From the NCBI GenBank assembly GCA_017399005.1, contig JAFQEO010000007.1, positions 1-64,000 of the forward strand: a DNA stretch of 64,000 nt. The letters run 5' to 3'. Positions 33,350-35,341 of this stretch are shown piece after piece. Origin of the DNA: Peptococcaceae bacterium. Its GTDB lineage: Bacteria > Bacillota > Peptococcia > Peptococcales > Peptococcaceae. The notes under the pieces are model-generated. The model was given only the letters and a program-made list of their open reading frames with translations. It ran no database searches and was not told where the DNA came from. The position numbers were made by a program, and so were the translations under genes. Numbering within the stretch: the stretch's first letter is position 1; the number at the start of each line of letters is the position of its first letter.

Positions 33350-35077
33350 CTATCTGCCGTACCTTTTCATTTTTTCATACAATGCTGCACTGTCTGCGGC
33401 AGGAATCTCCTGCACCTGACCAATCTGCGCAGCCAGACATGCCGCTCTGGCACCATCCTCTAAAATCTGCGCCAGCATATAGGCACGTTCCATAGTATCC
33501 GATACCGCAACGGCGCCATGGTTTGCCAGAAGGCACCCGTTTGCTTCTTTCAGCGCTTCTGCTGTTTTCTGAGCCAGCATGTCACTGCCCGGCTGATAAT
33601 ACGTTACCAGCGGAATATTCCCCGGCGCAATCATACCCATTTCGCCAATAACCGGGCCAAGTGTTTTTCCGCTGGATGCATACGCTGTACAGTAAGCCGA
33701 ATGGGTATGCATAATGGCATTGCAGTCAGGGCGAGCCGCATAAACGGCACAGTGCATTGGAAGTTCCGATGATGGTTTATACCGGTTGCTTACGCCCTCC
33801 ACCATGCTGCCGTCTAATCGCAGCAGACAGATATCCTCCGGCTGCATAGAATCATATAACACCCCGGATGGTGTAATGGCCAGCAGATTATGTTCCCTGT
33901 CCACGGCGCTCACATTGCCGAAACTGCCGCTGCTTAAACCGTCTCTAGCCATATTTTTTGCCGCATCCACCACCTGCTGCTGCAATGTTCTGGCATTGCA
34001 CTGTATTGCCGGTTCTCCTCTGCGAAGTGCTTCCAGATTCTGCTGAAACGGCGGAAATGCTACACCTTTTTCTGTAATAATGGCTGTGATATAGCGTTCC
34101 GGTGTCACATCAAAGGCCGGGTTAAAAATCGCCGCCCCGTCCGGCACTGTCTGCCGCCCGTTAAACTGACGGATTTCTTCTTCTTTGCGCTGTTCAATTG
34201 GAATCTGTGTTCCGTTTTCAATCGCAAAATCCACTGTGGAAAGCGGTGCTGCCACATAAAACGGAATACCGTGTTCCTTCGCCAGAATGGCCACTGTGTA
34301 TGTGCCGATTTTATTGGCTGTATCCCCGTTGGAGGCAATCCGGTCTGCACCTACAATCACCGCCTGCACATTTCCCTGCGCCATCACAACACCGGCCATG
34401 TTATCGCAGATGCTTGTAACCGGGATGCCACTCTGGCTCAGTTCCCATGCAGTCAGCCGTGCACCCTGCAAAAGCGGACGGGTTTCATCCGAATATACAG
34501 CAATCGGCTTGTTGCGTTCCTGCATCATATAGGCAGGCGCCAGCGCTGTGCCGTACATACTGGTCGCCAGCGCCCCGGCATTACAGTGGGTCAGCATTGC
34601 CTGAAAACCCGGAATCTGTTCCAGAAGGTCTGCACCGTGTTCCCCGATGGCACGACATGCCGCAATATCTTCCGCCAGCATTTTTTCACATTCTTTTAAA
34701 AGGCCTTTCACCAGAGTTTCGGTATCATCTCCCGATTCTGCCAGCCGCTCCGCCACTTCCCCCATACGGGTAACCGCCCAGTGCAGATTTACCGCCGTCG
34801 GACGGGAAGTATCCAGATAGGCTCCGGTTTCTTTCACTTCTGCCGCAAAATTTTCCCGGTTTAAGAGGCCCGCCTCCAGTTTACGCGCTGCGCCCAGATA
34901 AACACCAAAGGCACCCGCCAGCCCGATTGCCGGTGCTCCGCGCACCACCAGCCGCTTAATGGCATCCCACATCTGTTCCGCTGTAACAATCTCCTGCACA
35001 TCCAGCTCCACTGGAAGCTTTGTCTGGTCAATTAAAAATACTTTATCGCCTTCCAGCCATATTGGTTTTGGCAGCAT
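33350..35077 (-). CDS. Fused methylthioribose-1-phosphate isomerase (MtnA) and class II aldolase
   Basis: 575 residues from an ATG behind AAAGGATG (the frame runs on to 35194 without support). Residues 1-345 are MtnA/eIF2B-like, with RGAPAIGLAGAFGVY, the THCNAGALAT Cys block and the GADRIASNGDTANKIGT Asp block. Residues ~355-575 are a class II aldolase/adducin domain with SGSFGNVSA, the zinc-binding HTHSAYCTAYA and LLANHGAVAVSD. In the DHAP shunt MtnA isomerises 5-methylthioribose or 5-deoxyribose 1-phosphate, and the Ald2-type aldolase splits the ketose to DHAP plus an aldehyde. Here both steps are on one chain. No kinase or nucleosidase is adjacent. A classic MtnB dehydratase activity is the alternative for the second domain. 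Confidence 0.87.
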   Translation of the reverse strand: MLPKPIWLEGDKVFLIDQTKLPVELDVQEIVTAEQMWDAIKRLVVRGAPAIGLAGAFGVYLGAARKLEAGLLNRENFAAEVKETGAYLDTSRPTAVNLHWAVTRMGEVAERLAESGDDTETLVKGLLKECEKMLAEDIAACRAIGEHGADLLEQIPGFQAMLTHCNAGALATSMYGTALAPAYMMQERNKPIAVYSDETRPLLQGARLTAWELSQSGIPVTSICDNMAGVVMAQGNVQAVIVGADRIASNGDTANKIGTYTVAILAKEHGIPFYVAAPLSTVDFAIENGTQIPIEQRKEEEIRQFNGRQTVPDGAAIFNPAFDVTPERYITAIITEKGVAFPPFQQNLEALRRGEPAIQCNARTLQQQVVDAAKNMARDGLSSGSFGNVSAVDREHNLLAITPSGVLYDSMQPEDICLLRLDGSMVEGVSNRYKPSSELPMHCAVYAARPDCNAIMHTHSAYCTAYASSGKTLGPVIGEMGMIAPGNIPLVTYYQPGSDMLAQKTAEALKEANGCLLANHGAVAVSDTMERAYMLAQILEDGARAACLAAQIGQVQEIPAADSAALYEKMKRYGR

Positions 35078-35190: not shown

Positions 35191-35341
35191 ACAAAAAGAC
35201 TTACAGCAAACCAACTAACGGCAAAAGCCTTGCTGGTTTCTTCAAACACTGTAAGTCCTTCACAACCCCGCCAGAAGAGCACAGGTCGTTCCAGCAGGGT
35301 ATCTCTAGTATGTGCGGCACTGCCGAATTCATACTGGCAAT
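35191..35341 (-). promoter_or_regulatory. Structured 5' leader with terminator upstream of the mtnA-aldolase fusion (unidentified riboswitch candidate)
   Basis: The minus-strand RNA can form AGTATG/CATACT enclosing CGGC/GCCG, then a 10-bp stem between ACCCTGCTGG and CTGGCGGGGT. A long terminator-like hairpin follows (GACTTACAG/CTGTAAGTC at 35198-35257, inner AAACCA/TGGTTT) with CTTTTTG after it, about 115 bases before the start codon. Two compact stems plus an intrinsic terminator in a leader suggests ligand-controlled attenuation. It does not match the SAM, TPP, cobalamin, purine, guanidine, fluoride or T-box consensus patterns I can recall. Confidence 0.5.

Follow-up and report, generated by a model that had tools for sequence, protein, structure and literature searches.

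Layout of the locus

On the minus strand of the 64,000-nucleotide window (the whole stretch of DNA that was analysed), thiT (35932-35402) is followed by a structured element and then by a gene encoding a fusion of MtnA with a class II aldolase (35077-33350). A TPP riboswitch is located directly upstream of thiT (36019-35922, minus strand) and was the sole riboswitch found in the window by a scan with Rfam covariance models. The fusion gene (33350-35077, minus strand) encodes the domains IF-2B (45-340) and Aldolase_II (367-546) and probably serves to metabolise 5-methylthioribose or 5-deoxyribose phosphates; relatives, fused or adjacent, are present in several other genomes. The features of the locus are as follows.

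35375-35349, minus strand: terminator of thiT, the upstream neighbour of the element (terminator scan)
35330-35334, minus strand: -35-like element GTATG of a putative forespore-type promoter, arranged as GTATG-N14-GCACATACTA, the N14 spacing being shared by most family members
35306-35315, minus strand: -10-like element GCACATACTA, containing CATACTA (promoter match)
35193-35303, minus strand: small RNA gene, whole predicted transcript, with the start taken from the promoter spacing and the end from the terminator; full-length match to covariance model R1
35265-35300, minus strand: 5' hairpin with a 12-bp stem (35300-35289/35276-35265), from folding; only in the window's genus
35193-35262, minus strand: conserved family core (R2, E = 6.3e-16; R3, E = 3.6e-12; the window sequence was among the training sequences of R1, as 1 of 5, and of R2 and R3, so its own matches are not independent)
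35249-35258, minus strand: P1 5' strand GGACTTACAG, with both-side changes in every P1 pair of the 28-sequence alignment
35197-35206, minus strand: P1 3' strand CTGTAAGTCT, which is also the terminator stem and is followed by a T-run (35196-35193)
35232-35238, minus strand: P2 5' strand AACCAGC (covariation alignments)
35209-35215, minus strand: P2 3' strand GTTGGTT, including a G-U pair that never varies (27 of 27 rows)
35230-35231, minus strand: 5' side of the conserved internal loop, RA (AA in the window; alignments A3 and A5)
35216-35219, minus strand: 3' side of the conserved internal loop, GWUA (GUUA in the window; alignments A3 and A5)
35220-35229, minus strand: P3 hairpin GGC-TTTT-GCC (covariation counts and fold)
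35150-35123, minus strand: candidate sigmaA-type promoter of mtnA, TTTGCA-N16-TATAAT, between the element terminator and the mtnA start codon
33350-35077, minus strand: MtnA-class II aldolase fusion gene, a neighbour judged not to be controlled by the element

The region 35350-35191 (minus strand) folds at -58.2 kcal/mol, compared to -42.5 ± 3.8 for shuffled sequences (z = -4.1), and the predicted transcript 35303-35193 folds at -48.3, compared to -29.0 ± 3.3 (z = -5.8; 0/200 shuffles). The folded pieces are a small hairpin at approximately 35334-35306, the 12-bp hairpin, and a long terminator hairpin (35258-35197) with its T-run extending to 35193. A first-pass annotation had described two hairpins and a terminator forming the leader of the MtnA-aldolase gene. 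The hairpins and terminator as such are real (minus strand, 35304-35193), but the first small hairpin is promoter DNA and probably not transcribed.

The assignment of this structure to the MtnA-aldolase gene did not hold. The gene has a promoter-like site of its own downstream of the terminator, and, since a promoter scan gave 2 promoter-like sites vs 2.7 in shuffles, this site is weak taken alone; it is supported because relatives have TATAAT-type boxes at the same place, such boxes preceding mtnA also in G001, G002, G004, G005, and G007 when the sequences are read. With the thiT terminator upstream and the mtnA promoter-like site downstream, the element is therefore bracketed as its own unit.

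A nucleotide search found the element once in the window genome, which ruled out a mobile repeat, and found copies in 4 of the 7 other genomes of the genus. The element follows thiT in the window and in G001, and a DEAD-box helicase gene in G003 and G004. In G005 it follows an ABC-F gene and lies 3.4 kb from mtnA, which there keeps a TATAAT-type promoter. The rest of the genus (G002, G006, and G007, all three only 76-80% complete) gave no element match; the G006 contig ends inside mtnA, and in G002 and G007 the region upstream of mtnA has a TATAAT-type promoter without a model match. Two further observations were made in these genomes. Just upstream of mtnA in G007 (L041), CAATGAATCATTGAGGCTGCCG resembles the P2-P3 part beside a T-run and is perhaps a decayed copy. 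In G005 (L039), a unit around GATTATACGGTCGGC is directly repeated several times downstream of the RNA gene.

A conserved structured RNA family

We built covariance models from 5 genus sequences (R1), 14 sequences (R2), and 28 sequences (R3). R1 matched 11 of the 21 genomes of the order, each once and at full length, and 15 of the 46 genomes of the class; one locus (L111 in G036; R1 E = 0.0016) was dropped before the counts as it falls within an apparent argB coding sequence. At the level of the phylum, 31 of 398 genomes were matched by R2 and 41 of 398 sampled genomes by R3, with one strong match each. Ten of the 41 R3-positive genomes had not been used in any model (E = 1.4e-11 to 1.8e-5). 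The RNA is present in 25 of the 26 genomes in the class of G182, and in total 56 genomes from 15 families are positive (f1, f3-f8, f15, f48, f96, f99, f111, f119, f139, and f148). R3 and its alignment A7 were built on 28 of 36 loci, leaving out L103-L108, L126, and L139; reverse-strand matches of 6 loci are a palindrome effect, which was avoided by omitting L103-L108.

Several candidates were discarded. Weak second matches in three genomes (E = 0.005) lacked closed stems, and matches in Clostridium sp. MD294 and a Mediterraneibacter genome (E = 0.06-0.26) were not accepted. Carriage by phages was rejected, as 4 pattern matches in viral contigs showed the stems in none. A small open reading frame was likewise rejected: the conserved AAGGA leads no conserved reading frame in the sequences as read, unscored. 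No match to the RNA was found in five Bacilli genomes.

Single folds of 12 members formed the outer and middle helices in every case tested (z = -5.4 to -8.3), and the inner stem of L107 folded differently from the others. Both-side changes were found in 14 of 23 pairs in the 14-sequence MAFFT alignment (44 cells vs 12.6 in shuffled alignments) and in 19 of 23 pairs in the model-fitted alignment of 28 sequences (160 vs 45.4). A separate MAFFT alignment of 15 sequences of a second subtype gave 70 such cells vs 22.7. None of 500 shuffles attained the cell count in any of the three alignments, and every slid control was far lower. Covariation also extends outside the terminator stem, in line with the first-pass annotation: in the 5' hairpin, 6 of 7 modelled pairs have changed on both sides among the 5 genus members, a count that leans on the hand-set alignment A2, the MAFFT alignment A1 having misaligned that hairpin. 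Its sequence is almost wholly different between genus members, with the pairing kept. The element is a conserved structured RNA gene, as demonstrated by covariation.

The family has three helices, P1 to P3, and two subtypes. In the first, which includes the window's class, P1 is set apart from P2 in the folds by a 5' bulge of 6-9 nt; in the second, the two form nearly one helix, the apical loop varies, and little else is single-stranded. The internal loop between P2 and P3 (5'-AGC-RA-GG/CC-GWUA-GUU) is nearly invariant while the flanking helices covary, and one pair beside it is the G-U found in all 27 rows. Within the window's genus, the linker GUGAAGG is invariant across 5 members.

The earlier remark that the element fits no known riboswitch pattern was borne out by the Rfam search. 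A known riboswitch (SAM, SAH, or others) was rejected for want of a covariance model match on the element, and in Rfam 15 no family matched the element or the scanned members, on either strand, beyond chance level. Literature searches of open-licence papers recovered no earlier description that was recognised from titles and abstracts. The RNA family is apparently undescribed so far.

Promoter and genomic context

The B. subtilis sigmaF consensus is GYWTA-N15-GGnnAnAnTR and the sigmaG -10 consensus is CATnnTA. Promoter scoring used these strings, for which the cited papers supply spacing and similarity only. Upstream of nearly every family member we found nYATR-N14-GGnnAnAnTR, with N16 in one clade. 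Outside the genus, 39 of 40 members have a best joint -35/-10 site whose end lies 0-4 nt upstream of the model start, compared to 5.3% of 4,000 random windows, with ties broken toward the element in members and controls alike and L108 omitted as its upstream sequence is lacking; with other tie-breaking, the site is at the fixed place in 38 of 41. The 10 genomes that no model had used carry a perfect -10 in 6 cases, vs 1.3% of controls.

The window's genus has the same -35 and N14, followed by GCACATAMTA-like boxes that are nearer to the sigmaG form. This -10 variant agrees with the sigmaF -10 (GGnnAnAnTR) at 5 of its 6 fixed positions, is without the sigmaF GG, and fits the sigmaG CATnnTA. Four of the 5 genus members score 10/11 on the promoter, and G003 fits less well. 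The 5' hairpin lies between promoter and core in this genus. A spacing of 15 is described as usual, against 14 for PsigG (PMC5942855), and in C. difficile the sigmaF and sigmaG promoters are similar to one another and to their B. subtilis counterparts, the sigmaF promoters having a conserved G ahead of the -10 (PMC7438776, PMC3789822). Taken together, a promoter at a fixed distance and the P1 stem with its U-run delimit an independent transcription unit in silico. As a separate observation, a block (TTGTCTTAAAATTCTAATCATAA) that is nearly identical in 5 genomes from several genera (L104-L108) lies upstream of the core, starting ahead of the -35 and overlapping it; it may be where a forespore regulator binds.

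The sporulation gene spoIVA was found in 340 of 398 genomes, including all 41 RNA-positive ones and the window genome, and the RNA in none of the 58 spoIVA-negative genomes. The probability of 41/41 by chance is approximately 0.0016, by hand arithmetic that ignores relatedness, and shared ancestry confounds the co-occurrence. As 299 of the 340 spoIVA-positive genomes are without a match, the RNA is not a general feature of sporulation. The window genome also has a sigG-like gene, at 456.4 bits vs a cut-off of 457.

The genomic neighbours of the RNA vary from clade to clade. In the class of G182, a divergent Ku motif lies 113-168 nt upstream in 17 of the 22 loci examined (25 positives) and one further locus has LigD; a Pfam check of these Ku-LigD neighbours covered one Ku and one ligase. 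Ku and LigD are reportedly under forespore control in B. subtilis. The upstream gene in f5 encodes the sporulation protein YtaF (above cut-off in 3/3 tested), and the downstream gene in f15, f99, and f111 encodes a penicillin-binding protein with SpoVD as best model (below cut-off in 3/3 tested). At L104-L108, L110, and L112, a gene for a secreted beta-propeller-like (TolB/WD40-like) protein is convergent and ends beside the RNA terminator; such a gene is widespread in the window's class, and its family match is weak, with none for L110.

A candidate forespore small RNA

These findings suggest that the element is very probably an independent forespore small RNA gene from a conserved family, its transcription being deduced from promoter and context. 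RNA polymerase carrying sigmaF, sigmaG, or both would start the RNA in the developing spore from a promoter of the type GYATR-N14-GGnnAnAnTR, of which the window has the variant GTATG-N14-GCACATACTA, and transcription would stop at the RNA's own P1 stem and U-run. We strongly infer both forespore transcription and self-termination. The product would be a closed, stable hairpin of approximately 75 nt, or of approximately 110 nt with the extra 5' hairpin of the window's genus. Its 5' end would be tucked against the terminator stem, and we speculate that this could make the RNA long-lived, suiting storage in the spore.

How such an RNA would act is a matter on which our confidence is about even: it may work through a protein bound at the internal loop rather than by antisense pairing, sequestering or scaffolding proteins in the forespore or the dormant spore. 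Protein binding is favoured because single-stranded stretches are scarce in the second subtype and the loop is invariant while the helices are rewritten. A sporulation small RNA that base-pairs with mRNAs, using the linker or the loops as seed, is possible but rather unlikely. An independent small RNA with a terminator and a sporulation-type promoter would suit such a role, as would the invariant linker of the genus, and antisense action via loops or linker would apply mainly to the first subtype, which has the 5' bulge; against it, the second subtype is one nearly continuous helix with a variable apical loop, and the invariant bases sit in an internal loop with paired bases on either side.

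CsfG, a sigmaF/sigmaG-dependent RNA of Bacillus, is the nearest comparison. Both are small independent RNAs with a sigmaF/sigmaG-type promoter, here assigned in silico with the consensus strings, and with conservation in spore formers. CsfG is described as conserved among spore formers, with no mRNA target identified at the time of that description; it is said to correspond to the reverse strand of the ylbH motif and to carry conserved CU-rich loops (PMC3574147). Homology with CsfG, for which the shared independent gene and expected expression pattern would speak, is very improbable: alignments A3 and A5 have no CU-rich conserved loop, CsfG being compared by description only, and the searches of Rfam, on either strand of the scanned members, and of the five Bacilli genomes gave no match. 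Our RNA is apparently analogous, not homologous, to CsfG.

Other Bacillus sporulation small RNAs, such as Bvs196, SurA, and SurC, share sporulation-tied expression, which is predicted for our RNA. These are described from Bacillus species, Bvs196 has a length of 294 nt, and 66 of the 152 independent RNAs of B. subtilis depend on sporulation sigma factors. A long hairpin with an internal loop is also shared with 6S RNA. The latter is longer and has a large central bubble, and our RNA has no Rfam match.

It is also highly unlikely that the element is merely a strong intrinsic or bidirectional terminator of neighbouring genes. P1 with its U-run is a terminator and a convergent gene ends nearby in several clades, but a plain terminator would not be expected to keep its internal-loop sequence across 15 families as a single copy, nor to have a promoter at a fixed distance. 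The attenuation riboswitch of the first-pass annotation, in which ligand-dependent termination would control the MtnA-aldolase gene, is largely refuted and exceedingly improbable. In its favour, the window, G001, G003, and G004 all have the hairpin and terminator ahead of mtnA. Against it, the same-gene association is absent in G005 and neighbours are others in other clades, mtnA was not seen among the listed neighbours of members outside the genus (sequences read, some family-checked), the genus has promoter-like sites of mtnA after the terminator or without an element match, and the terminator stem is the widely conserved helix, with no alternative antiterminator in the folds.

Returning to the forespore small RNA, we tentatively propose, with somewhat less than even confidence in the whole, a deeply conserved family that would be near-universal across one or more spore-forming classes, bind protein through its invariant internal loop (RA/GWUA and the adjacent G-U), perhaps be stored in the dormant spore, lie beside Ku-LigD, YtaF, or SpoVD-like genes depending on the clade, and form a functional counterpart of CsfG of independent origin.

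Few RNAs are known to work within the developing spore, and the cited ones come from Bacillus or act when sporulation begins in C. difficile. Strong covariation, a single copy, a forespore-type promoter at a constant position, and near-complete coverage of one class (25 of 26 genomes) point to a function under selection. A selected RNA function at this stage would be one that protein-centred views of sporulation have overlooked. A covariance model of the family is ready for use, its loop gives a precise target for mutation, and the prediction is simple, namely that the RNA would depend on sigmaF/G.
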